In this document: positions 1-11,322 of the stretch, piece after piece
How the letters are laid out: each line of letters opens with the position of its first letter
How positions within the stretch are numbered: the first letter of the stretch is position 1
Source of the DNA: Bradyrhizobium sp. SRL28
GTDB lineage: Bacteria > Pseudomonadota > Alphaproteobacteria > Rhizobiales > Xanthobacteraceae
NCBI RefSeq assembly: GCF_018596315.1
Contig: NZ_JAHEAG010000016.1
Coordinates: 62,001 to 126,000 of the forward strand
Direction: 5' to 3'
Length of the DNA stretch: 64,000 nt
Notes under the pieces: model-generated
The model's input: only the letters and a program-made list of their open reading frames with translations
What the model was told of the DNA's origin: nothing
Databases searched by the model: none
Translations under genes and position numbers: made by a program

Positions 1-1029
1 TGCATCGAGAGGCGGGAAAATTCGTAGTCCTTGGAGTGGCCTTCGTAGTTCCGCGTGCGATAGATTAGATGGACGAGGCTGTGCACGTTGTGAGAGGCAG
101 CCGTCCTGAGCAGCCTGACGTCCTCTTGCTCGCGCAGATCTTCAGGCAGCCTGCTCAAGAGAGCTGCCAGTTCTCGCTGCAACCGGTGCAGGCTCTTGAA
201 CTGGTCTGTGCTCGCTCGCGTGCGGCTCGAGTATTGAATCTCCTTTTGACGCGTAACGACGTCGGCCATATTGCGCGGAATCTGGCCGCGTGCGCTCCAG
301 AGATCAACCTGAAACACGAGCGTGTCCTGACGGGCGCCACACTCAATCACCCACTGCAACGGAGTGTTGGATACGAGGCCGCCATCCCAATAATGTTCAC
401 CATCGATTTCGATCGCTGGAAAGCCCGGCGGCAGCGCCCCACTCGCCAGGATGTGCTCGGGCCGAATCGTATGCGTGGCAGTGTCGAAATAGACCAGATT
501 GCCGGTCCTCACATTGACGGCACCCGCGCTGAACCGCGTCATGCCGGCGTTGATACGATCGAAATCGACGAGGCGCTCCAGTGTCGTCTTCAGCGCGCCC
601 GTGTCGTAGATGCTGGTGGCGGCAAGCGTTCCACCCGCTTGCAGCCATGGCGCCAGTGGCCGCGCAGAAAAGAATCCGTTCGCGCCAAACACCGCCGCAA
701 AGCTCGCATTCACCTGATTGAGAAAATTGCGGGTGTGATCGCTATTCAACAAATCGGTGAACGGCGCGTCCAACGTCACCTGCGTCCAAAACTCGCGAAG
801 CCGGTCAACGCGGGAATTGGGAGGATTGCCCGCGATGATTGCAGCGTTGATCGCTCCAATCGAAATGCCGGCAATCCAATCCGGATGGATGTTGGCTTCG
901 GCCAGAGCCTCGTAGACGCCTCCCTGATAAGCCCCCAGAGCGCCGCCGCCTTGCAATAGCAACGCTATGCAATCGAATGGCGGGCGCCGGTCGCCGGTCG
1001 TGAGGTGAGGTCGAGGCTGAAAATTCATG
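1..1029 (-). CDS. Patatin-like phospholipase (3' end cut by window edge)
   Basis: The frame is open from an ATG at 1029 to the window edge (343 codons). It encodes a cytoplasmic patatin-type lipid acyl hydrolase. The three patatin hallmarks are visible: the oxyanion-hole glycine stretch QGGGALGAYQGG at about residues 30-41, the nucleophile elbow GISIG (GxSxG) at about 62-66, and the catalytic aspartate in DGGLVSN near residue 208. An AAGGG sits about 9 bases before the ATG. A long perfect palindrome 70 bp upstream suggests TetR repression together with the efflux operon. Substrate is unknown; related proteins act on phospholipids or neutral lipids. The true C-terminus lies outside the window. 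Confidence 0.9.
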
Positions 1030-1098: not shown

Positions 1099-1127
1099 TT
1101 AATAAACTATACGGTATAGTTTATTAA
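1099..1127. promoter_or_regulatory. Perfect 29-bp palindrome, probable TetR operator
   Basis: Two 14-bp arms flank a central G; the core is AAACTATACGGTATAGTTT. It lies 70 bp upstream of the patatin gene. Two related sites occur at 8126-8144 and 10442-10458, each in front of a gene start. A dimeric TetR repressor encoded at 8220 is the likely ligand (inference). Confidence 0.75.
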
Positions 1128-1258
1128 TGGCCTTGTCAAGCGAGCGCGTTCACAAGCTCGTGCTGGAACCAATTACTTAAGTCCCACGTTCGCCAGACGT
1201 TGTTGTCCCAACCAATTGGACACGCTGACGCAACGCCAAGGTTCGGAGTTCGTGATTG

Positions 1259-1777
1259 TTAGTTGCAAACCAGAACGCGTTGGTGGCGACTGTAGGTGTA
1301 GTAGCAGTCGCTATCGGAATAATTGTCACCGCTTGAGTTGCCATAGGTATAGCCGGCATAGGCGCCAGCGACGTAGGCTGCACCATAACCGTATCGCCGC
1401 CCGCCATAGCCATGGCTGAAGCTTCCGGAACGGCTGTGGCTGACCGATGCAGAGCGAGCCTGGACCGAGCGAGCGACCGCGGGTCCGTCACGACCGCCAG
1501 CGCGTACGCCGCCAAGCGCCCTTAGATCGCCGCGAGGACCAGCGCCGGCGCCCAGGCGAGGAGCCGGACCGCCGAAGCCGGCACGGGGCGCACCGCCAGG
1601 CCCCATGGGAGGAGGAGGACCTGCAAACGCCGGAGGACCGCCGGCCGCGATCGGCGGAGGACCGCCCGGCCCCATTGGAGGCGGACCGGGGAATTGCGCA
1701 AACACCGCAGTCGGCGCCAAGGAAATCGTGGCGAGCGTCGCGCTGACAGACAGCGTCAAGTGTATCTTCCAGGACAT
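1259..1777 (-). CDS. Gly/Pro-rich secreted protein
   Basis: A 172-residue protein with an N-terminal signal peptide (charged start, hydrophobic run, cleavage likely after AVFA at about residue 27). The mature part begins with a Pro/Gly-rich stretch of repeated GPPPxGPGG-like units, then a Ser/His and a Gly/Tyr-rich section, and ends with two cysteines near the C-terminus. No enzymatic domain is recognised. The start at 1777 was chosen because it has a GGAG ribosome site and lies 13 bp after the pump gene; longer forms would overlap that gene. It is probably the last gene of the efflux operon and likely sits in the periplasm or envelope. Function unknown. Confidence 0.75.
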   Translation of the reverse strand: MSWKIHLTLSVSATLATISLAPTAVFAQFPGPPPMGPGGPPPIAAGGPPAFAGPPPPMGPGGAPRAGFGGPAPRLGAGAGPRGDLRALGGVRAGGRDGPAVARSVQARSASVSHSRSGSFSHGYGGRRYGYGAAYVAGAYAGYTYGNSSGDNYSDSDCYYTYSRHQRVLVCN

Positions 1778-1790
1778 TATAGTCTCCGTT

Positions 1791-4700
1791 TTAGATTTGC
1801 GTCTCGAGCACCGGCACCGGCGCGGCCGGCGCGAGAGTCGGGTTCGACGAATGGCTGTCGTGCGCCGGATCAACGGTCTCACTCGTCGGCCGGCCATCGT
1901 CGTGTTCGGGGTGGATCCGGAACCACGCCACATAGAGCGCCGGCAGGAACAAGAGCGTCAGCAGTGTGCCGACGATGATGCCGCCCATCATCGCGTAGGC
2001 CATCGGGCCCCAGAAAATCTCGCGCGCTATCGGAATCAGCGCGAGACTAGCGGCAGCCGCGGTTAGGATAATCGGCCGCATGCGATTTTCGGTCGCTTCC
2101 ACCACGGCGTCCCAGGCTCGGCGCCCCTCCTTCCTCAGATCCTCAATCTGCACAATCAGGATCACGGAGTTTCGGACCAGAATGCCGATGAGTGCCAACA
2201 CGCCGAGGATGGCAACGAATCCGAGAGGCGAGCCGCTCGGCAGCATGGCCATGACGACGCCGATCACGGCAAGCGGCGCGACCGCAAACACCAGGAACAG
2301 GCGATGGAAGCTTTGCAGCTGAATCATCAGGATTGTGGCCATGACGAAAAGCATCAGCGGAACGATGGCGACGATCGGCGCCTGGCTCTTGGCGCTCTCC
2401 TCGACGGAGCCGCCGATCGCCACCGAATAATCCGCCGGCAGTTGTTTGGCGAACTCCGCCACCCTCGGCGCCAGCTGATCCATGATCGTCTTCGGCTGAA
2501 CGTTGGTGACGACGCCAGCCTTCAGCGTGATCGTGGGAATCCGCGCGCGGCGCCAGATCGTCGGCTGCTCGATCTCGTAGCGCAGATTGGCCACGGCCCC
2601 GAGCGGCACCGCCTGCCCGCCGAGCCCGGTTAACTGCAGATCTCGGAGCGTATCGATCGAGGCGCGCTCGACCGCAGTAGCGCGTCCAGTGACATTGACG
2701 AGATAGATGCTGTCGCGAACCTGTGTGATCGGCGTGCCCTCGAGCACCGAGTTCAGGGTCGTGGCGATGTCTTCCGAGGTCACGCCGAGCTGACGCGCCT
2801 TGTCCTGGAGAACGTCGACCTTGACGACGCGCGCAGGCTCCATCCAGTCGAACACGACGTTGCCGAGATCGGGGTTGCTCCGGACGATGCCGGCGAGTTC
2901 CTGCGAGAGATCCCTGACCTTCGCGACGTCTGGCCCGCTTACGCGGTATTGCACGGGACGTCCCACGGGCGGACCGACCTCGAGCAACTTGACGTAGGTG
3001 TCGGTGCCTGGAAACGTCTTCCTCAGATATTCCTCAAATTGCGCCTTGACGAGGTCGCGCGCCTTTATGCCGCCCTTGGTCACAACTATTTGCTGGCCAA
3101 ACCATGAATTGGCCGTCTGCACGTCGAACGACAGCACGAACCGCGGCGCGCCCGTGCCGACATAAGTCGACCAATGCTCCACGGAGCCATTGCCCTGCAG
3201 CTGTTCGCGCTCGAAGCGCGCCATTTGCGCATTGGTGTCTGCAATCGAAGCATTTTGCGGCAAGTTCCAGTCGATCACCAGTTCGTCACGGTCCGACGAG
3301 GGAAAGAACTGCTGCTGCACGAACGTCATGCCGAACAACGCGACGAAGAAGGCGGCAACCGTCACGCCGACAGTGATCCAACGGTGATGCATGCAGACGA
3401 GCAGCAGGCGGGCGAACATCTGCGCCAGCCGGCCCTTCTCCCCATGGTGCCCCTTCATCTTTGCGGGCAGGATGGTGACGCCGAGCAGCGGGGTAAACAG
3501 CACCGCGACGATCCACGACACGATCAGGGAGACCGCAATCACCACGAACAGGGTGAAGGTAAATTCGCCGGCATTGCTGCTGTTCAGCCCAATCGGGATG
3601 AAGCCCGCGACGGTGACCAGCGTGCCCGTCAGCATGGGAAAAGCGGTCGACGTATAGACGTGGGTCGCCGCCTTCTCCAGGGGATCGCCGGCCTCCAGTC
3701 GGGCCACCATCATTTCGACGGCAATCATGGCGTCATCGACCAGAAGGCCCAGCGCGATGATCAATGCACCCAGCGAAATTCTCTGCAATGAAATGTCGGC
3801 ATAGGCCATCACCACGAACGTAATGGCGAGAACCAGCGGGATCGCAATTGCGACGACCAGCCCGGCGCGCATGCCTAAGCTGAGGAAGCTGATGGCGAGA
3901 ACGATGACCACGGCCTCAAACAGCGCATGGGTGAAGCCCGACACGGCATGCTCGACGACGACGGGCTGATTGGCAACCAGATGAACGCCGACGCCGATCG
4001 GCAGGTCGGCAATGACCTTTGACATTTCCTCCTTCAGCGCCTCGCCGAAGTGAAGCAGGTTTGCGCCGGTCTTCATGCCGATGGCAAGCCCGATTGCAGG
4101 CTGGCCGTTGTACCTGAACAAGGTCTTGGGCGGATCGGCATAACCGCGTGTGATGGTTGCGACGTCGGTCAGCGGAAAGAAGCGGTCGTTGATACGGAGA
4201 TTGACCGCGTTCAGGCTTGCTTCCGACGTGAAACGGCCGTTCACCCGCACGCTGATCCGCTCGGGCCCCTCCTGGAGCACACCGGACGGCGCGACCGCGT
4301 TTTGTCCTTGCAGGGAAGTCATGATCGAGTGGACGTCAAGGCCAAGGGCCGCGATCTTCCGCGTGGAGAACTCGAGGTAAATCACCTCCTCCTGCGTTCC
4401 CAGAATGTCGACCTTACCCACGTCCTGCACGGTCAAGACCTTGGCGCGGATACCCTCGACCTCGTCGCGCAGCTGGCGCTGGGTCAAGCCGTCGCTGGTG
4501 AAGGCATAGATGTTACCGAACACGTCGCCGAAACGATCGTTGAAGCCCGGTCCGATCACTCCTTGCGGAAAATCGCCTTTGATATCCGCGATCATGTTGC
4601 GGACGCGGACCCAGGTCGGCTTGACGTCAGCCGCCTTTGTCGTATCTCGCAGATAGACGAATACGGTGGTCTGGCCCGCGACCGTCACGCTCCTGGTGTA

Positions 4701-4943
4701 GTCGAGGGATTCCAGCTCCTCGAGCTTCTTTTCGATCCTGTCAGTGACCTGGCGCGTCACTTCTTCGGGCGATGCGCCCGGCCACTGCGCCTGGATCACC
4801 ATTGTTTTGATGGTGAAGTCGGGATCTTCCTGACGACCAAGCTGAAGGTACGCAAAGAAGCCTGCCGCCATGAAGGCGATCATGAAATACCAGACGAGCG
4901 AACGATGTTCGAGCGCCCAGTCGGAAAGGTTGAACGACTTCAT
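1791..4943 (-). CDS. RND efflux pump, inner-membrane permease
   Basis: A 1050-residue proton-driven transporter of the AcrB/MexF (HAE-1) superfamily that expels drugs or other amphiphiles from periplasm and membrane. Seen in the protein: first membrane helix at about residues 14-31, large periplasmic loops, the proton-relay motif GLLVDDAMIAVEMM in the fourth helix (both aspartates kept), a second repeat beginning near residue 510, and GILVRNSVILIVQ in the tenth helix, where Arg replaces the Lys usual in AcrB. Length matches the family. It starts 2 bp after the upstream adaptor gene ends, so the two are one transcription unit. No outer-membrane channel gene (TolC/OprM) is present nearby, so one must be supplied from elsewhere. 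Substrate unknown. Confidence 0.95.
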   Translation of the reverse strand: MKSFNLSDWALEHRSLVWYFMIAFMAAGFFAYLQLGRQEDPDFTIKTMVIQAQWPGASPEEVTRQVTDRIEKKLEELESLDYTRSVTVAGQTTVFVYLRDTTKAADVKPTWVRVRNMIADIKGDFPQGVIGPGFNDRFGDVFGNIYAFTSDGLTQRQLRDEVEGIRAKVLTVQDVGKVDILGTQEEVIYLEFSTRKIAALGLDVHSIMTSLQGQNAVAPSGVLQEGPERISVRVNGRFTSEASLNAVNLRINDRFFPLTDVATITRGYADPPKTLFRYNGQPAIGLAIGMKTGANLLHFGEALKEEMSKVIADLPIGVGVHLVANQPVVVEHAVSGFTHALFEAVVIVLAISFLSLGMRAGLVVAIAIPLVLAITFVVMAYADISLQRISLGALIIALGLLVDDAMIAVEMMVARLEAGDPLEKAATHVYTSTAFPMLTGTLVTVAGFIPIGLNSSNAGEFTFTLFVVIAVSLIVSWIVAVLFTPLLGVTILPAKMKGHHGEKGRLAQMFARLLLVCMHHRWITVGVTVAAFFVALFGMTFVQQQFFPSSDRDELVIDWNLPQNASIADTNAQMARFEREQLQGNGSVEHWSTYVGTGAPRFVLSFDVQTANSWFGQQIVVTKGGIKARDLVKAQFEEYLRKTFPGTDTYVKLLEVGPPVGRPVQYRVSGPDVAKVRDLSQELAGIVRSNPDLGNVVFDWMEPARVVKVDVLQDKARQLGVTSEDIATTLNSVLEGTPITQVRDSIYLVNVTGRATAVERASIDTLRDLQLTGLGGQAVPLGAVANLRYEIEQPTIWRRARIPTITLKAGVVTNVQPKTIMDQLAPRVAEFAKQLPADYSVAIGGSVEESAKSQAPIVAIVPLMLFVMATILMIQLQSFHRLFLVFAVAPLAVIGVVMAMLPSGSPLGFVAILGVLALIGILVRNSVILIVQIEDLRKEGRRAWDAVVEATENRMRPIILTAAAASLALIPIAREIFWGPMAYAMMGGIIVGTLLTLLFLPALYVAWFRIHPEHDDGRPTSETVDPAHDSHSSNPTLAPAAPVPVLETQI

Positions 4944-4945
4944 GG

Positions 4946-6016
4946 CTACTGATCCTTTTTGATACGGACGTGCTGCCCCGGCGTGAGGCTGTGGATTCCG
5001 GCTGTCACGATGCGCGCACCGGGAGCAAGCCCGCTGGCGACGCGGGCATCTGCGGGGTCCCCGGCGAGATCGACCTTGTGCAGCGACACGGTGCTCTCGC
5101 GCTGATCGACGACCCAGACAAAATTAGCGTCATCCTTGGCGACCACCGCCGAGGTGGGGACGCGCAATGTCGGACTTTGCTCTTTGCCGAGCTTCGCCGT
5201 AACGGTCGTGCCTAAGCGAAAGCTTTCAGGGGGATTGTTCAGGGTGATGCGGACTCGCCGCAGGCGTGTCGCGGGGTCTGCTTGCGGGGCGATCTCGCGA
5301 ACCTTGCCTTCGACCTGAACGGCGGGGAGCAGCTGTAAGCCGACGGTGAATGGCAAGTTAATTTCAAGCGGCACCGGGAAATCCTCCCCGATATCGACCA
5401 CCGCCTCCCTGATGTCGGGATTCGCAACTGTCACGACATTCTGGCCAGGAGAGACCACCTGCCCGACTTCTGCACCCACCGCAGTGATGACGCCGGCGAA
5501 ATCGACCTTGAGCTGTGCATAGCCCCGTTGCTCGATGGCCTTGAACAGATTCGCCTGTGCGTGCGCCACCGACGCGGCGGCGCCGGCCCGCGCCTGCTCG
5601 GCATTGTCCAGTGTCTGCTTTGTGGTGGCGTCGGTTGTGATGAGGGTTCGCTGCCGCTGCTCTGTCGCCGTTGCAGTCGCCAGCAGCGCCTCGGCCTTCG
5701 TAAGCTCAGCCTTGGCCGAGCGCACCGCAAGCTCCAGAGCCGTGGAATCGATCACACCGACAGTTTGCCCTTCACCGACGAGGTCGCCAACGGAGACGGG
5801 ACGCCCGATCAGACGTCCCAAGACGCGGAACGCGACATTAGTCTTGTACCGCGACTCAACAACGCCCACGGCAACGATGCCGTCCGTGCGGCTCGGCTCA
5901 AGGACCATCGACAGCACGGGCCGCACGGGCTCGGGCGCTTTCGCGTCCTGCTGACATCCAGCCAGCACCAGCGCGGAAATAAACGTGCCGGTTGCAATCA
6001 TAGCGCGCTTCTTCAT
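4946..6016 (-). CDS. RND periplasmic adaptor (membrane fusion lipoprotein), second of two
   Basis: A 356-residue HlyD/AcrA-type adaptor that links the RND permease to an outer-membrane channel. It starts with a lipoprotein signal (lipobox LAGC at about 17-20), followed by a half lipoyl domain (GRLIGRPVSVGDLVGEGQ), an alpha-helical hairpin, the second lipoyl half and a beta-barrel region. Its ATG overlaps the stop of the preceding adaptor gene in an ATGA, so translation is probably coupled. Two different adaptors in front of one permease suggest a heteromeric adaptor ring or use of alternate adaptors (inference). Confidence 0.93.
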   Translation of the reverse strand: MKKRAMIATGTFISALVLAGCQQDAKAPEPVRPVLSMVLEPSRTDGIVAVGVVESRYKTNVAFRVLGRLIGRPVSVGDLVGEGQTVGVIDSTALELAVRSAKAELTKAEALLATATATEQRQRTLITTDATTKQTLDNAEQARAGAAASVAHAQANLFKAIEQRGYAQLKVDFAGVITAVGAEVGQVVSPGQNVVTVANPDIREAVVDIGEDFPVPLEINLPFTVGLQLLPAVQVEGKVREIAPQADPATRLRRVRITLNNPPESFRLGTTVTAKLGKEQSPTLRVPTSAVVAKDDANFVWVVDQRESTVSLHKVDLAGDPADARVASGLAPGARIVTAGIHSLTPGQHVRIKKDQ

Positions 6017-7146
6017 GACCGGTCTCCCTCATATGTCACGGCCTGGCCAACGCTCAGCAGCTTGCCGCCATCGATCACGACGCGCTCGCCCGGCTTGAGG
6101 CCCGCCTTGATCAGCACTTCTCGGGCTTCATAACCGCCGATCGTCACCGGCTTGAGCGCAGCCGTTTTAGTCGCCGGATCGACGGTCCAGACCGCGGGCT
6201 TCGATCCCGCCGCCGCCAATGCACTCCAGGGCAATGCGATCTGCCGCTGGGCCTTCGCTTTGACGGTTCCTGCAACAGCGCTTCCAAGCGTCATCGCTGC
6301 CGACGGATCCTGGATGGCAACCTTGACGCGGATGGTCGCGCTCTTCGCATCAATCGCGGGCGAGACTTCCCTTACATGTCCGTTCGCCGTCACGCCTGCG
6401 TCGTAGACAAGCGCCAGCGATACGTGGCTGTCGTCAAGATCGCCAAAGAAGAGGGATTCGTAGACGTCGAAGACGGCATCCCGTTCACCGTCCTGCGCCA
6501 GCGAGAAGACGGGCTGCGCGGCTTGTACGACCTGGCCGACTTCCAAATTGCGTGCGGTGACCACGCCTGTCGCTTCGGCGCGCAGCGCGGTAAAGCCAAG
6601 GGCGTCTTTCGACGTTCCGAGCTCCGCTTTTGCTGCTTCAAGCGCACCTTCTGCGGTTCGCAATCCTTCCTGCGCCTGATCGTAGACCGTCCGCGTGGTG
6701 TAACCGCTTGCGATCAGCGCCTTTTGCCGTTCGAAGGTCGCCCTGGCTACGCGTAGCTGAGACTCTCCGGCCAGCACCGCCGCAGTTGCGGCATCGACGT
6801 CGGCCTGCTGCTCGGCGGGATCGAGCAGAGCAAGGACCTCACCAGCCTGGACGCGGGCGCCGACATCGACATAGCGCGCGAGCACACGTCCGCTTACGCG
6901 GAACGAGAGGTCGGCGCGGAAACGGGCCTGGATTTCGCCGGTCAGGGTGACAGAGGCTTGTCGGTCCCGCGGCTGCACGACCTCCGTGCGCACGATCGCG
7001 GCACGCGTGACGGGAGCAGCGGTATGATCGTTGCAGCCACTCAGCGCGATTGCGACAAGCGCGGCCGCCAGGACGTTGGACCCTGTCAGCTTGCCGTTGC
7101 GGGCGGTTTTAACGATTTCAGTTTGGATCTCAGAGTGATGTTTCAT
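6013..7146 (-). CDS. RND periplasmic adaptor (membrane fusion lipoprotein), first of two
   Basis: A 377-residue adaptor protein of the AcrA/MexE family. The chosen ATG at 7146 is the A of an ATGA overlapping the stop of the upstream kinase gene; this gives a lipoprotein signal with lipobox LSGC at about residues 33-36, which a longer start would bury. Lipoyl (GRVLARYVDVGARVQAGE), coiled-coil hairpin (about 110-200) and barrel domains follow in family order. It ends in another ATGA overlap with the second adaptor. The overlaps tie kinase, both adaptors and the permease into one translationally coupled unit. Confidence 0.93.
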   Translation of the reverse strand: MKHHSEIQTEIVKTARNGKLTGSNVLAAALVAIALSGCNDHTAAPVTRAAIVRTEVVQPRDRQASVTLTGEIQARFRADLSFRVSGRVLARYVDVGARVQAGEVLALLDPAEQQADVDAATAAVLAGESQLRVARATFERQKALIASGYTTRTVYDQAQEGLRTAEGALEAAKAELGTSKDALGFTALRAEATGVVTARNLEVGQVVQAAQPVFSLAQDGERDAVFDVYESLFFGDLDDSHVSLALVYDAGVTANGHVREVSPAIDAKSATIRVKVAIQDPSAAMTLGSAVAGTVKAKAQRQIALPWSALAAAGSKPAVWTVDPATKTAALKPVTIGGYEAREVLIKAGLKPGERVVIDGGKLLSVGQAVTYEGDRS

Positions 7147-8096
7147 GACACGTGACCAGGTGACAACAACTCCCGCAGCGCATCCGGCGCTGGACGGGCA
7201 GAGATCGGTTGGGCTCCGCGAGCGGGATTCGGATCCGGTCGAGTTGCAACGGGGCGGCTGCCCCGATCCGGGCACTTCGCGCCTGGGTAAAGCGCCGAGG
7301 CATCGGATGGGCCGACTTTTGACCGGCTAGACGACCGGATGATGCGACGCTTCGCCATCGCCCAGTTCGCCTGCCGCTCACGCTCTGTCAGCGGAAACGA
7401 TAGGACGACGGATGTGAAATCCGTGCCGAAGCCGTGCTCGATCCGGCCGCCGATGCCCTTGGCAAGATCATTGCTGATCCGGACTCCGCGTCCCGCGGCG
7501 CCCCGTACCGACCGCGATCCATTGTCCAGGACGACGCAATTCACCACCGCGCCGATTCGTGTCAGCTTGACCTTGATTTCTCCGGTCCGCGCCTCGAAGC
7601 ACGCATGCTTCGCGGCCTCGGTTACGAGCCCGTGGACGATCAATGCCAGCCGCCGGCATCGCTCTGGTTGGAGCGGAAGAGATTCGGTGTCGAGTGCCAG
7701 CCGGATATTCATTCGATCCAGCAACGAACGGCGCATGGCGCAGCCCATCATGCGGATGTATGTCGCGGCGTCGATCAGCGCCTTGCCCCTGGGCATTTCG
7801 AGCGCCTGCTGCACATCGGCATAACCATGCAACAGTTCGACCATGTCGCTTAAGGCGCGCTTGGCCTCAGACCCCTCAGCTCGGACGGCCGCGGCCGAGA
7901 CCAGGTTGATCGCCAAGGCGAGCCCATTATTGATCCGGTGATTCAATTCGCGCAGCAGAATGCCCTGCTCCACTTTTGGCGAGTCCGGCCTGCACACAGT
8001 CACGACAATCTCCTCAGGTTGCACCGGATGAGCGGGGGCCGAACGCGCATGTGGCGGCCGGCCGGTCATCCGGATGAGCTGTCGCAGGCCTGGCAA
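7143..8096 (-). CDS. HWE/HisKA_2-type sensor kinase-like protein with degenerate N-box
   Basis: About 317 residues from a TTG at 8096 (ATG at 8069 is an alternative start, 308 residues). It contains a phosphoacceptor-type helix LLRELNHRINNGLALAINLV (about 47-66) and a HATPase_c fold with a VLDNGS segment. The N-box asparagine expected in the ATPase site is absent: the segment reads GLVTEAAKHA, where the paralogue at 30347 has LLTNVARHA. ATP binding is therefore doubtful. No input domain or membrane helix is seen; a basic, low-complexity tail of about 60 residues follows the ATPase fold. It is the first gene of the efflux operon and overlaps the first adaptor by ATGA. A palindrome at 8126 lies just upstream. 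Confidence 0.8.
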   Translation of the reverse strand: MPGLRQLIRMTGRPPHARSAPAHPVQPEEIVVTVCRPDSPKVEQGILLRELNHRINNGLALAINLVSAAAVRAEGSEAKRALSDMVELLHGYADVQQALEMPRGKALIDAATYIRMMGCAMRRSLLDRMNIRLALDTESLPLQPERCRRLALIVHGLVTEAAKHACFEARTGEIKVKLTRIGAVVNCVVLDNGSRSVRGAAGRGVRISNDLAKGIGGRIEHGFGTDFTSVVLSFPLTERERQANWAMAKRRIIRSSSRSKVGPSDASALYPGAKCPDRGSRPVATRPDPNPARGAQPISARPAPDALRELLSPGHVS

Positions 8097-8125
8097 TCAA
8101 AGCCGGCCCTCGACGAAGTTAAAGT

Positions 8126-8144
8126 AAACTATACCGTATATTTT
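8126..8144. promoter_or_regulatory. Probable TetR operator in the 8097-8219 divergent region
   Basis: AAACTATAC and GTATATTTT flank a central C, an imperfect copy of the palindrome at 1099. It sits between the leftward efflux operon and the rightward tetR gene, so one site could control both (autoregulation plus pump control). Confidence 0.7.
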
Positions 8145-8219
8145 CTTTTCATTGCATTTCCTGCTTGAGCGTGTCAAGTGGGATCTAGGCACGCACAAAC
8201 TCGTGATTAGGAGACGGTG

Positions 8220-8882
8220 ATGGCGAAGAACAAAAGCCCGAAACGCGGCAGGCCGCCCAAGGATCTTGCTGGCGACGTCCAGGCGCGGATTCTCGATGCA
8301 GCCCAGCAGCTCTTTCTCGAGAAAGGCTTTCGGAGTGCCAGCATCGACGATATCTCCGAGTTGGCCCCTGCGAGCAAACCGACCATCTACGCCCATTTCC
8401 CCGGCAAGGAGGCACTGTTCGTGGCTGTGGTGGCCCGGACCATCAACGGATTGACAGACTTCGAGGGATTCACGCCGGCAGGCCGCACCATCCAGGAAAA
8501 GCTTACCAATCTCGGAATCGAAATCGTGGAGAGATTCGTAGAGGACACGTTGGACCTCACGCGCGCGACGATCGCCGAGGCGCGGCGATTTCCCGAGTTG
8601 AGCCGAAATGTTCACGACGCGGCGCGCGACCGCGCGGCCGGGGCAGTTTCGCACCTTTTGAACGAGGCAACGCAGAGGATCGCGCGCTCATCTAAAGGAC
8701 CTTTCAGCGCAAAGCGGAGCGTTGCGACCGCGCAGATGTTCATGGATCTCATCCTGCTTCCGATGCTTATGAGATCTCTGATGGGTGAGGAACTGAAGGA
8801 TCTCAGAAAAGAGCTGCCGACGTTCTTGCACGAACGGGTCAATTTCTTTCTTGCGGCTTGCGAGGCCGACTGGAGGCCGTGA
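8220..8882 (+). CDS. TetR-family repressor (probable regulator of the pump regulon)
   Basis: A 220-residue TetR protein. A basic N-terminal tail (KNKSPKRGRPPK) precedes the helix-turn-helix at about residues 20-65, with the typical SIDDISELAPASKPTIYAHFPGKEALF pattern split over helices 2-4; the C-terminal ligand domain resembles the AefR/TetR_C group. The ATG at 8220 has AGGAGA six bases upstream; a GTG at 8217 is in frame but too close to that site. It is divergent from the efflux operon with a matching palindrome between them. Its 3' end meets a second, convergent tetR gene with a 1-bp gap. Confidence 0.93.
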   Translation: MAKNKSPKRGRPPKDLAGDVQARILDAAQQLFLEKGFRSASIDDISELAPASKPTIYAHFPGKEALFVAVVARTINGLTDFEGFTPAGRTIQEKLTNLGIEIVERFVEDTLDLTRATIAEARRFPELSRNVHDAARDRAAGAVSHLLNEATQRIARSSKGPFSAKRSVATAQMFMDLILLPMLMRSLMGEELKDLRKELPTFLHERVNFFLAACEADWRP

Positions 8883-8883
8883 A

Positions 8884-9555
8884 TCAGCCACAGACCCCGC
8901 TCGCTATCCTTGCGCCACGGCTTTTGGGACTCAAGTCGGCGGCCAGGTCGATCGACTGCCCCCATGGAGCATGACGCAGGGCGCCTGCACAGAAATCCAT
9001 CATCTCGTCAAACGCGGGCCGAACGGTAGCCGCGTTGATCCGCGACGGATTGAGATACCCGTCCATTGCTTCAAGCAGGCAACAGGTCATCGCCATCGGA
9101 CTTCCCGGTCGCAGTTCGCCGCTCGCCTGCCCACCAGCAATGATCACGCGCACAAGTCCCCGGATCCGGTCTGCGTAAGACTGGGCGATAGCCCAGTTCT
9201 CGCGTACTGCCGCAGCGGCCAATTCGTGTTGTTTGCTGTCGTTCTCCAGCCGATGTTCGTGCAGCCGCGAGATCGCCCTCAAAGCAGCCGTTAAGCGCTC
9301 CAGTGCGGAGCCGCTGCGAGCCGCAAGCGTTGCGGCCGCGGAGACGTGTTCGAACAGATCCGCCACGACCGCCTCTTCGATCGCCTGCTTTGAAGCGAAG
9401 AAGCGGTAAACGTTAGCGGGCGACATCGACGCTCCGCGAGCGATATCGGCGACGGTGGTCTTCTTGAAACCGATCTCGCGGTGCAATCGGATCGCTGCTT
9501 GTACGATCCGCCGACGAATGCACGACGATCCGCCTTGGCCTATCCGCTGCTGCAT
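8884..9555 (-). CDS. TetR-family regulator, second copy
   Basis: A 223-residue TetR protein, with the helix-turn-helix at about 14-60 (TTVADIARGASMSPANVYRF) and a ligand domain that is unlike the neighbour at 8220. A GAGG lies 9 bases before the ATG. It is the last gene of a three-gene leftward operon: GLG1-repeat protein (10296-10009), membrane protein (10004-9567) and this gene, with gaps of 4 and 11 bp. It may regulate that operon or share the palindrome at 10442 with the first TetR; the sequence does not decide. Confidence 0.9.
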   Translation of the reverse strand: MQQRIGQGGSSCIRRRIVQAAIRLHREIGFKKTTVADIARGASMSPANVYRFFASKQAIEEAVVADLFEHVSAAATLAARSGSALERLTAALRAISRLHEHRLENDSKQHELAAAAVRENWAIAQSYADRIRGLVRVIIAGGQASGELRPGSPMAMTCCLLEAMDGYLNPSRINAATVRPAFDEMMDFCAGALRHAPWGQSIDLAADLSPKSRGARIASGVCG

Positions 9556-9566
9556 CGCTTGGGACC

Positions 9567-10004
9567 TCAGCGAGATGGGATCGAATGCAATTCACGTCGG
9601 CAGGCTTCCCCGAAGCCACGCAAGGGATCCATTTCCTCCATGAACTCAGGCAGATCGACAAATTCGCGGTTGGGTGACAGGTAGGTTTCGATGATCACGC
9701 GACCTGCCCGCTCCGCGGCTTGAACAACTTGATTGCTGGACAGAATCCTCATCCGCCCTATCAGGGCATACAGATTGACCAGTTGCGGAATCTCGGATTT
9801 GTCGCTGACAAGCGCGTCGGCGTAGAGTCGGGAGGCTTCCTCGATGAAGCTTCGATAGAGCCGCTCGCGCTTGGAAATCGAGCGGGCGTAGTGGCGCTCG
9901 CCAAGCCTGCGGCGCCGGGTCACCCATCCAGTCACGATCGTGGAGATCGCTCCGAAGGCCGAGCCCCCGAACGCGGCGACAGCAGGAATATAAATCAAGT
10001 TCAT
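9567..10004 (-). CDS. Small membrane-anchored protein of unknown function
   Basis: A 145-residue protein with one N-terminal membrane helix (about residues 3-27, rich in Ala, Gly and Ile), then a basic segment WVTRRRRLGERHY and a helical cytoplasmic domain carrying an R-R-Y-x-x-F-I-x-E-A-S motif. It is clearly paralogous to the protein at 26747-27196: both share anchor, FI(E/D)EA(S/A)(R/K) pattern, LYA-(K/L)-(S/G)R-MR and the (E/D)-x-F-V-(D/E)-L end. Both copies are in an operon with, or close to, a GLG1-repeat protein. No known enzymatic motif is visible. Confidence 0.85.
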   Translation of the reverse strand: MNLIYIPAVAAFGGSAFGAISTIVTGWVTRRRRLGERHYARSISKRERLYRSFIEEASRLYADALVSDKSEIPQLVNLYALIGRMRILSSNQVVQAAERAGRVIIETYLSPNREFVDLPEFMEEMDPLRGFGEACRRELHSIPSR

Positions 10005-10008
10005 GCGA

Positions 10009-10296
10009 TCATTCCTCGTCCCTTGCGCCCCGGTACCGGCGCGATCCTATGGTCCTGACCGAAGCAGCTTCCGCAGCGTGATCGAAGACGGCTCTGCAAG
10101 CATCGCTCAGGTCTGATTTTCTTTGCCTGAGACAGGCCTCCACATTCGTGGCGTCAGGGATGTAGCTAAGGCACAGCCGGAAGGCGTCAGGCGCGCATGC
10201 GGCCCTCTGTTCGGGAGTGCCGCGGTTCTCCTGCGCAAAGGCAGTCCCATTGCCGAACAACGCCGCCAGCATGACGACTAATGTGTACTTGAACAT
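10009..10296 (-). CDS. Periplasmic protein with one GLG1-type cysteine-rich repeat
   Basis: A 95-residue secreted protein. A signal peptide (about residues 1-22, ending AFA-QE) precedes one repeat of the GLG1/Cys_rich_FGFR type: C-x3-D-x3-L-C, then C-L, then L-S-x2-C-R. The ATG at 10296 was chosen because it begins the signal peptide; longer starts add a cysteine-rich arginine tail with no signal. The stop is 4 bp from the start of the membrane protein gene. A paralogue lies at 29039-29320. The repeat family is known in eukaryotic Golgi protein GLG1 and in many short proteobacterial proteins of unknown role. Confidence 0.85.
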   Translation of the reverse strand: MFKYTLVVMLAALFGNGTAFAQENRGTPEQRAACAPDAFRLCLSYIPDATNVEACLRQRKSDLSDACRAVFDHAAEAASVRTIGSRRYRGARDEE

Positions 10297-10410
10297 AAAG
10301 AATCCTTTCTTCTGCTGAGGCATCGCTCTTTCGAACGGGAAACGCAGCGTCACGCTCCGATTCCCCCGCCCTTCAAAACAGTCTGAACACGCGCTTGTGA
10401 GTCTTCGCTC

Positions 10411-10460
10411 TTGACACATCCCGCAGTTCGGGATGTATATGAACTATACGGTTTAGTGTA
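10411..10460 (+). promoter_or_regulatory. Sigma70-type promoter with nested hairpin and TetR-like operator
   Basis: TTGACA (10411-10416) and TGTATA (10434-10439) are 17 bp apart. An inverted repeat ACATCCCG/CGGGATGT (10416-10423, 10429-10436) fills the spacer, and a third palindrome copy (AACTATAC-G-GTTTAGTG, 10442-10458) follows directly. The promoter points at the gene at 10476 and sits between it and the divergent operon at 10296. Confidence 0.65.
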
Positions 10461-10475: not shown

Positions 10476-10685
10476 ATGTCAACACTTTTGTGGTCGCTCG
10501 CGAAGGAAAATCCGTGGCCGGGGCTTGCGCTCGCATCCCTGAACCTGGTCGTGGCACTGTCTCTCGTGGGCCTGAGCTTGCTGCTGGGCGTTACAATATC
10601 CTTGGTTGCCTGGCTGCACGCGGTCGTCGATCGAGAGGCGGTGCCGATCAAGCGGCAAGCCCAGCGGCGGCGGGCCACTCCATGA
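10476..10685 (+). CDS. Small inner-membrane protein
   Basis: A 69-residue protein with a short N-terminal lead, one long hydrophobic region (about residues 17-50, long enough for one or two helices) and a basic C-terminal tail (KRQAQRRRATP), which by the positive-inside rule should face the cytoplasm. GGAG lies 6 bases before the ATG, and a consensus promoter with operator is directly upstream. Not recognised as a named family; its place under the palindrome suggests an envelope role in the same response as the pump. Confidence 0.7.
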   Translation: MSTLLWSLAKENPWPGLALASLNLVVALSLVGLSLLLGVTISLVAWLHAVVDREAVPIKRQAQRRRATP

Positions 10686-10887: not shown

Positions 10888-11322
10888 GTGAGCAGAACAT
10901 CCGTTTTGTCAATGCGTGCGCGCGGCTTAGTCGATGCTCAAACTCCCCTGCGGGGTTACTTTCTGTGGGTCGGCGGAGCGTTGCTCGCGCTGCTCTTTGC
11001 AGCCGATTCGCTGCTGCCCGCGCCCCTGCCAAGCAAGCTCATCGAATCCCATTCTACGCTTCCGCCAATCCGGATCACCTCCGAGCTGAAGGGACCGGAA
11101 GCAGTTGTCATCAATACCAGCCAGCCCGGCTTCCTGCCTATACTGCCGGACAAGGAGATTGCCGCGGCCCGTCGCCGCCGCTCGGCTCTGATGTGGCCGA
11201 TGCTGTACGACAGTCGCCCGCTTCATTGTCCGAGCAAGCCGCAAAAATACCTGACGAGCATGAAACAGGCGGTGAGAGACGTCGAACGTCGATGGTCGGC
11301 CGCGATCAGAGCGGCGGGGTAA
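10888..11322 (+). CDS. Hypothetical single-pass membrane protein
   Basis: About 144 residues from a GTG at 10888; an ATG at 10912 is a weaker alternative with no visible ribosome site. One membrane helix at about residues 25-43 (GYFLWVGGALLALLFAAD) is followed by a presumably periplasmic domain with a proline-rich linker (PAPLPSKL) and a C-terminal helix rich in Arg. No known domain. It follows the small membrane gene at 10476 after about 200 bp in which I see no gene. Confidence 0.6.
   Translation: MSRTSVLSMRARGLVDAQTPLRGYFLWVGGALLALLFAADSLLPAPLPSKLIESHSTLPPIRITSELKGPEAVVINTSQPGFLPILPDKEIAAARRRRSALMWPMLYDSRPLHCPSKPQKYLTSMKQAVRDVERRWSAAIRAAG

Follow-up and report, generated by a model that had tools for sequence, protein, structure and literature searches.

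Palindromic sites and gene units at the locus

The stretch of DNA analysed here (the window, 64,000 nucleotides of Bradyrhizobium sp. SRL28) carries near its left end an RND efflux pump operon, two TetR genes, a patatin-like phospholipase gene and several small-protein genes, together with three copies of one palindrome. Its genes are named below by their orthologs in the BjG30 locus (bll7017-bll7033) of Bradyrhizobium diazoefficiens (japonicum) USDA110 (Takeshima et al. 2013, PMC4070704). The half-sites AAACTATAC-N-GTATAGTTT occur in the window three times, with 0, 1 and 3 mismatches; using AAACTATACNGTATAGTTT with up to three mismatches as the operator search pattern, we located them at 1104-1122 (0 mismatches), 8126-8144 (1) and 10441-10459 (3). 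Putative operator C (1099-1127, core 1104-1122) is TTAATAAACTATACGGTATAGTTTATTAA, a perfect 14+1+14 palindrome of 29 bp, 70-75 bases upstream of the patatin start; putative operator A (8126-8144) lies between the leftward pump operon and the rightward tetR, and putative operator B (10441-10459) between a leftward small-protein/tetR2 unit and a rightward small-protein unit. None of the three is assigned to a strand.

The patatin-like phospholipase (PF01734 + DUF3734; 1-1029, minus strand, ortholog of blr7027) runs past the left end of the window and heads an operon in which acetoacetate decarboxylase (ADC) and hydroxybutyrate dehydrogenase (BDH) follow on the same strand, at about G000:C68:60168-63029. 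ADC matched PF06314 and NCBIfam PRK02265 (427 bits vs a cut-off of 150), and BDH was identified as a 3-hydroxybutyrate dehydrogenase by TIGR01963 (373 bits vs 307). An earlier, sequence-only reading of this DNA had spoken of a patatin gene and a lipase; it is to be corrected in that the patatin is the first gene of a patatin-ADC-BDH operon leaving the window. The pump operon, also on the minus strand, begins with a HisKA_2-type kinase-like protein (7143-8096, bll7022), followed by two membrane-fusion proteins (the second at 6013-7146, bll7021, and the other at 4946-6016, bll7020), the RND permease (ACR_tran, 1791-4943, bll7019) and a Gly/Pro-rich small protein (1259-1777, bll7018) with no Pfam match up to E 5. 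On the plus strand beyond site A lies the TetR_N + TetR_C_7 repressor gene (8220-8882, blr7023; henceforth the 8220 protein), the probable owner of operators A-C, whose TetR_N helix-turn-helix is present (PF00440, E 2.5e-15). The leftward unit behind site B consists of a small Cys-containing protein as its first gene (10009-10296), a small protein without a Pfam match above the cut-off (9567-10004, bll7025) and a second TetR (TetR_C_27, 8884-9555, bll7024), a probable target rather than owner, all on the minus strand. The rightward unit begins with a small protein that is probably a membrane protein, as judged by eye (10476-10685, plus strand), and continues with another small protein (10888-11322, plus strand).

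A random origin of these sites was rejected. The pattern gave no match in 100 shuffles of the window (mean 0.00, maximum 0), which bears out the earlier claim of one palindrome at three places. Across the whole genome (9,651,211 bases, 262 contigs), counting only sites with up to three mismatches, it occurred at 5 places against 0.16-0.52 expected from base composition, and the reversed control pattern occurred at none; the objection of random occurrence, which the sequence-only reading had raised against itself, thus fails at this stringency. The two genomic sites outside the window are both on contig C13, in a sister locus described below.

The sites coincide with the genistein-induced units of USDA110

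According to the main text of PMC4070704, genistein raised 12 of the 17 BjG30 genes 24.6- to 213.9-fold at 30 minutes, with an onset at 5 minutes, and bll7017, blr7026, blr7031, bll7032 and bll7033 were not induced. Almost all 5-hydroxyflavonoids were inducers, naringenin was inactive and 5-deoxyflavonoids were on the whole inactive (PMC4070704).

To place the sites on this map we used the published primers. An exact search with one blr7023 primer found a single genome among 265 of the genus, G157 (at 7,738,787). Since 33 of the 34 BjG30 primers match it exactly (the exception being one of the blr7031 pair), and since their span of 7,729,966-7,748,486 agrees with the published interval of 7,729,680-7,748,456 (agreement given as within 50 bases), we infer from these matches that G157 is USDA110. 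Of its five sites with up to three mismatches, BjG30 contains three. One separates bll7022 from blr7023, another the rightward small gene from the small-protein gene that lies upstream of bll7025, and the third separates blr7026 from blr7027. The units behind these sites are bll7022-7018, blr7023, bll7025-7024 and blr7027-7030. Thus, all 12 induced genes lie in units behind a site, and none of the five uninduced genes has a site directly upstream.

Gene content and order in the window match bll7018-bll7025 with both TetRs, as determined by tblastn and primer mapping, and the window has the linked blr7027-7029 operon (patatin, ADC, BDH) in a different place and orientation. Like the window, USDA110 therefore combines the pump genes bll7018-7021 with bll7022, blr7023, bll7024, bll7025, blr7027-7029 and the same three sites; its patatin operon is on the plus strand, following the PepSY gene blr7026 to the right of the small-protein unit, whereas in the window this operon is on the minus strand and to the left of the pump operon. 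The earlier proposal that one palindrome, probably owned by a single TetR, precedes the units of lipase, pump and small proteins is supported by these data, the USDA110 orthologs being co-induced in the pattern that the sites predict.

Conservation of the sites and their link to patatin

We explored site conservation in 67 loci found by scanning named genomes via the TetR, 57 of which were classified as core loci (pump permease above 80% identity). The core loci hold 137 sites with up to three mismatches. About 200 permuted palindromes gave a mean of 0.7 hits in the same loci; three of them reached 40, 40 and 52, which probably reflects a resemblance to the real sites. Site A was found in 57/57 core loci (0-3 mismatches; 38 with the window's exact 19 bases) and site B in 56/57 (0-4 mismatches), the exception, L160, being rearranged. 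Site A carries 1.87 bits of information per column against 0.32 in its 5' and 1.28 in its 3' flank, site B 1.74 against 0.93 and 1.11, and site C 1.76 against 0.72 and 0.46 (20 pre-patatin sites profiled). Conserved TTGAC-type elements flank site B on either side, and before site C such elements are conserved less strictly, which would agree with putative operators placed at promoters; the element on the right-hand side of site B shares bases with the small gene's start codon, so that coding may explain its conservation.

The link to patatin was followed through rearrangements of the locus. Patatin was found in 45 named loci, and in 22 of them it has its own site directly upstream: in all 13 loci in which it lies left of the pump (0-2 mismatches), in 6 in which it lies to the right of the PepSY gene (143-515 bases after it), and in 3 in which it directly follows site B. 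The other 23 patatins have no own site with up to four mismatches. Among these, 22 begin 37-78 bases after PepSY in the direction of the site-B unit and, judged from this spacing, close coupling to PepSY explains the lack of an own site. In total, 44/45 loci have patatin either directly downstream of a site or closely coupled in the direction of the site-B unit.

The 8220 protein as candidate regulator

Calling 8220-type TetRs at E 1e-65 or better divided the 265 genomes of the genus into 72 with and 193 without such a protein. The strict 17-base pattern ACTAWACSGTATATTTT, without mismatches, was found in 63 of the 72 and in none of the 193 (Fisher test 1.1e-51, relatedness ignored); G025, one of the nine TetR genomes lacking it, has a perfect ACTATACCGTATAGT about 120 bases before its TetR match. 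A conserved palindrome beside its own tetR gene and before the targets is the arrangement of a TetR-family local repressor regulon.

Since two TetRs are encoded here, we also considered whether the second one (8884-9555, bll7024) owns the palindromes, the 8220 protein being a mere neighbour. In favour of this, its gene is part of the locus, and the USDA110 ortholog belongs to the induced unit behind site B. However, a tblastn search (E 1e-8, 35% coverage) detected no 8884-type TetR in eight of the 57 core loci (L108, L120, L121, L138, L141, L148, L150, L156), each of which retains sites A and B; where a core locus has both TetRs, the 8220 one is the better conserved in 49/49, and it is the 8220 gene that site A adjoins. 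We therefore set the second TetR aside as a very improbable owner. Because the sites persist in these eight loci, comparative sequence evidence makes the 8220 protein, the blr7023 ortholog, the likely regulator of sites A-C. The sequence-only reading had allowed either TetR; its 8220 candidate is retained and its 8884 candidate dropped.

Compared by sequence with the PDB, the 8220 protein has its best matches in 6g87/6g8g and 6g8h, titled FrrA, FrrA with genistein and FrrA with naringenin. FrrA responds to flavonoids and, with FreCAB (blr4322, bll4319-bll4321), represents a TetR encoded next to an RND pump; identity to FrrA is 29% for the 8220 protein and 33% for its USDA110 ortholog. The FrrA sequence searched (189 residues) is 100% identical to a G157 gene at 4,774,797, and FrrA occurs in G157 alongside a 77% relative of the 8220 protein, with 33% identity between the two. 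We thus rejected the 8220 protein as the FrrA (blr4322) ortholog; it is a relative only. The AlphaFold model of the 8220 TetR is weak (predicted local distance difference test, pLDDT, 69; predicted template modelling score, pTM, 0.55), so its fold ranks serve as support only: FrrA matched it with Z 13.4-13.8 over 190-193 residues, and the top match was NalC, a TetR repressor of Pseudomonas aeruginosa (Z 16.1, root-mean-square deviation 4.9, 198 residues, 25% identity). NalC differs in its targets and ligands.

The region upstream of FrrA (L174 1238-1308) contains AAACTGAACCGTTCAGT and CAACGATACTGAAC-N-GTTTAGTTTCGTTG, both of them palindromes that share their frame with the BjG30 operator; in AAACTGAACCGTTCAGT the core is CTGAAC instead of CTATAC. 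No window-type site with up to three mismatches was found at the FrrA gene in G157.

A sister regulon with near-identical sites

The two C13 sites, AAACGATACCGTATAGTTT and AAACGATACGGTATGGTTT, flank genes for a patatin-like lipoprotein, an FAD-dependent oxidoreductase (DAO) and a TetR, and a PepSY protein lies behind the second site (L006 6528-10881; G000:C13:178527-182073 and flanks). The sites have the form AAACGATACNGTAT(A/G)GTTT, one or two mismatches from the BjG30 operator, and the sister TetR is 26% identical to the 8220 protein, the TetR_C_7 domain being common to both. G157 has such a locus as well (L173), with TetR, patatin, PepSY and two sites. Comparing site type with gene type in 30 match loci (L048-L077), we found the CGATAC/GTATCG core in 17, all 17 with a sister-type TetR or patatin, and the other site type in 13, of which 12 have an 8220-type TetR or a BjG30-type patatin or PepSY. 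Sister sites were consequently set aside as part of the same regulon, since sister-type genes accompany them in 17/17 loci. The thirteenth locus of the other type, L058 (G107:C61), has the site GAACTATACGGTATAGTAT and, in its 3 kb, none of the six query proteins (TetR, patatin and PepSY of both types); this site is possibly a further target or a chance site.

Such resemblance raises the question of whether the sites serve more than one regulator, the 8220 protein together with a TetR of near-identical operator (the sister TetR of C13, or FrrA), which would produce cross-talk. The small distance between the site forms, the shared TetR_C_7 domain and the same-frame AAACTGAACCGTTCAGT upstream of FrrA speak for it. 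Against it, each site type accompanies its own genes, with which cross-binding would still be compatible, and the strict site-A pattern was never seen in a genome lacking an 8220-type TetR. We regard sharing of this kind as rather unlikely.

Six further loci (L153, L157, L158, L159, L161, L164), several of them from photosynthetic strains, encode a TetR 48-62% identical to the 8220 one and have sites with 2-4 mismatches, with a sister-type PepSY in 6/6 and patatin in 3/6; no relative of the window pump was found in the stretches of 11.6-20.6 kb examined. As TetRs with near-identical palindromes, in the sister locus and in such loci of other Bradyrhizobium, adjoin patatin and PepSY without a relative of this pump in the stretch examined, one may tentatively ask whether patatin, not the pump, is the old constant target, to which one branch later added the flavonoid pump, the PhyK-like HisKA_2 protein and ADC-BDH. 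We consider this possible but on balance doubtful; the TetR tree, with its very long branches for FrrA and the sister TetRs, is not certain enough to give the evolutionary steps an order. If true, the regulon would represent a plant-signal-triggered change in envelope lipid and storage polymer, to which efflux was added later.

A putative flavonoid-induced regulon

Because the sites exceed chance, are conserved, fit the published co-induction and co-occur with the 8220-type tetR, we consider it highly probable that the locus is a local TetR-repressed, flavonoid-induced regulon, in which the 8220 repressor acts on three operators to co-control the pump, the lipase operon and small envelope proteins. 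Without ligand, the 8220 TetR would sit on all three palindromes, at or beside the promoters of four units: site A would control the HisKA_2-pump operon and the repressor's own gene, site B the small-protein/bll7025/tetR2 unit on its left and perhaps also the small-protein unit on its right, and site C patatin-ADC-BDH. A plant-type aromatic ligand (for the USDA110 ortholog, 5-hydroxyflavonoids such as genistein) would release the TetR, and the pump, the lipase/hydroxybutyrate operon and the envelope proteins would then rise together. Binding by the 8220 protein, repression, the ligand and a USDA110-like response of the window's strain are the parts of this scheme that we infer.

Several observations weigh against this scheme. 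We found no binding or expression data for the 8220 TetR, and its 29% identity to FrrA (33% for the USDA110 ortholog) means that homology does not establish a flavonoid ligand. The named loci were found through the 8220-type TetR, so the presence of this TetR in them is by design. A promoter scan gave one promoter-like match in the region vs 1.7 in shuffles, which is not above chance. In G210 (the same as L119 by identity and position) the ACTAWACSGTATATTTT match is not directly before the TetR, nor is any site with up to four mismatches, and in L134 a 411-base gap before patatin holds no site with up to four mismatches. In USDA110, blr7026, the PepSY gene downstream of the rightward small genes and on the same strand beyond site B, is uninduced, a misfit to a long rightward unit, and blr7031, about 60 bases after blr7030, is uninduced as well, so that spacing fails to predict where the patatin unit ends.

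The sequence-only reading had favoured envelope-lipid stress rather than plain drug efflux, the signal being membrane damage and the pump secondary. Consistently with that view, lipases of the patatin type are found repeatedly next to other TetRs whose sites are near-identical, with no relative of the pump in the stretch examined. Yet the published inducers are 5-hydroxyflavonoids, which act within 5 minutes, membrane-active agents lying outside the tested set as the main text of PMC4070704 gives it, and deletion of bll7019-7021 made growth genistein-sensitive (2.0% vs 57.9% in wild type at 5 uM genistein; PMC4070704). In addition, the patatin unit also has ADC and BDH, read in the same article as polyhydroxybutyrate (PHB)/acetone metabolism. 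An envelope-lipid signal for the whole regulon is thus improbable and the earlier preference was not upheld; such a role is possible for part of the regulon, the published phenotype being flavonoid resistance through the pump.

The BjG30 locus itself is already known; the operator, the regulon map and the sister regulon are new here. BjG30 is a large locus outside the USDA110 symbiosis island that responds to genistein within minutes, and its regulator was previously only suspected: the authors pointed to a TetR, without saying in the main text which one (PMC4070704). Loss of the pump impairs genistein resistance and nodules, the nodules of the deletion strain being lighter, yet more numerous, and cosmid complementation of the deletion failed (PMC4070704). 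The flavonoid regulon proposed here offers an operator, blr7023 as candidate regulator and a set of predicted responsive promoters; with it, the 'hypothetical' blr7027 is recognised as a patatin, and a small protein missing from the BjG30 paper joins the gene set. A shared operator would explain a published plant-signal response whose switch PMC4070704 leaves unnamed in its main text, and with the map, flavonoid sensing independent of NodD becomes open to testing in a soybean symbiont. No word starting with 'palindrom' or 'operator' occurs in the main text of PMC4070704, and no published operator was found for the BjG30 locus tags in a comparison that covered mostly titles; the FrrA-site paper (Wenzel 2012) and PMC2575884 lay outside it and could mention the sites. 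The passages of PMC5591287 that were considered have nothing on BjG30 locus tags or efflux.

Further features of the locus and its relatives

Pfam searches up to E 5 assigned no family to any of the small proteins at 10009-10296, 10476 and 10888. For the 10009-10296 protein this, and the lack of any NCBIfam match up to E 0.01, removes the earlier 'GLG1-repeat' label. Its ortholog is absent from the genes of the USDA110 paper, and in most core loci the genes behind site B start with it. Table 1 of PMC4070704 lists no primer pair in the ortholog of the rightward small-protein unit (10476).

In gene make-up alone, the pump operon resembles TriABC-type RND pumps, which have two membrane-fusion proteins and, as here, one permease. 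The best NCBIfam match of its HisKA_2 protein (7143-8096) is PhyK, at E 3e-11 and 42.6 bits vs a cut-off of 750. By eye, the N-box Asn is Glu in the window strain and Asn in the USDA110 ortholog, and the protein may be a degenerate kinase in the window strain.

Variants of the locus were seen among its relatives. Bradyrhizobium sp. CSA112 (L101) and genome G125 have a second 8220-type TetR copy (91-92% identity) about 4 kb from the first. L119 (1235-1253 and 10001-11606), from a groundwater Bradyrhizobium metagenome-assembled genome, has an 8220-type TetR (85%) without this pump in the stretch examined, and a 3-mismatch site before another fusion protein/RND pair (34%/42% identity), as if the operator had recruited another pump.

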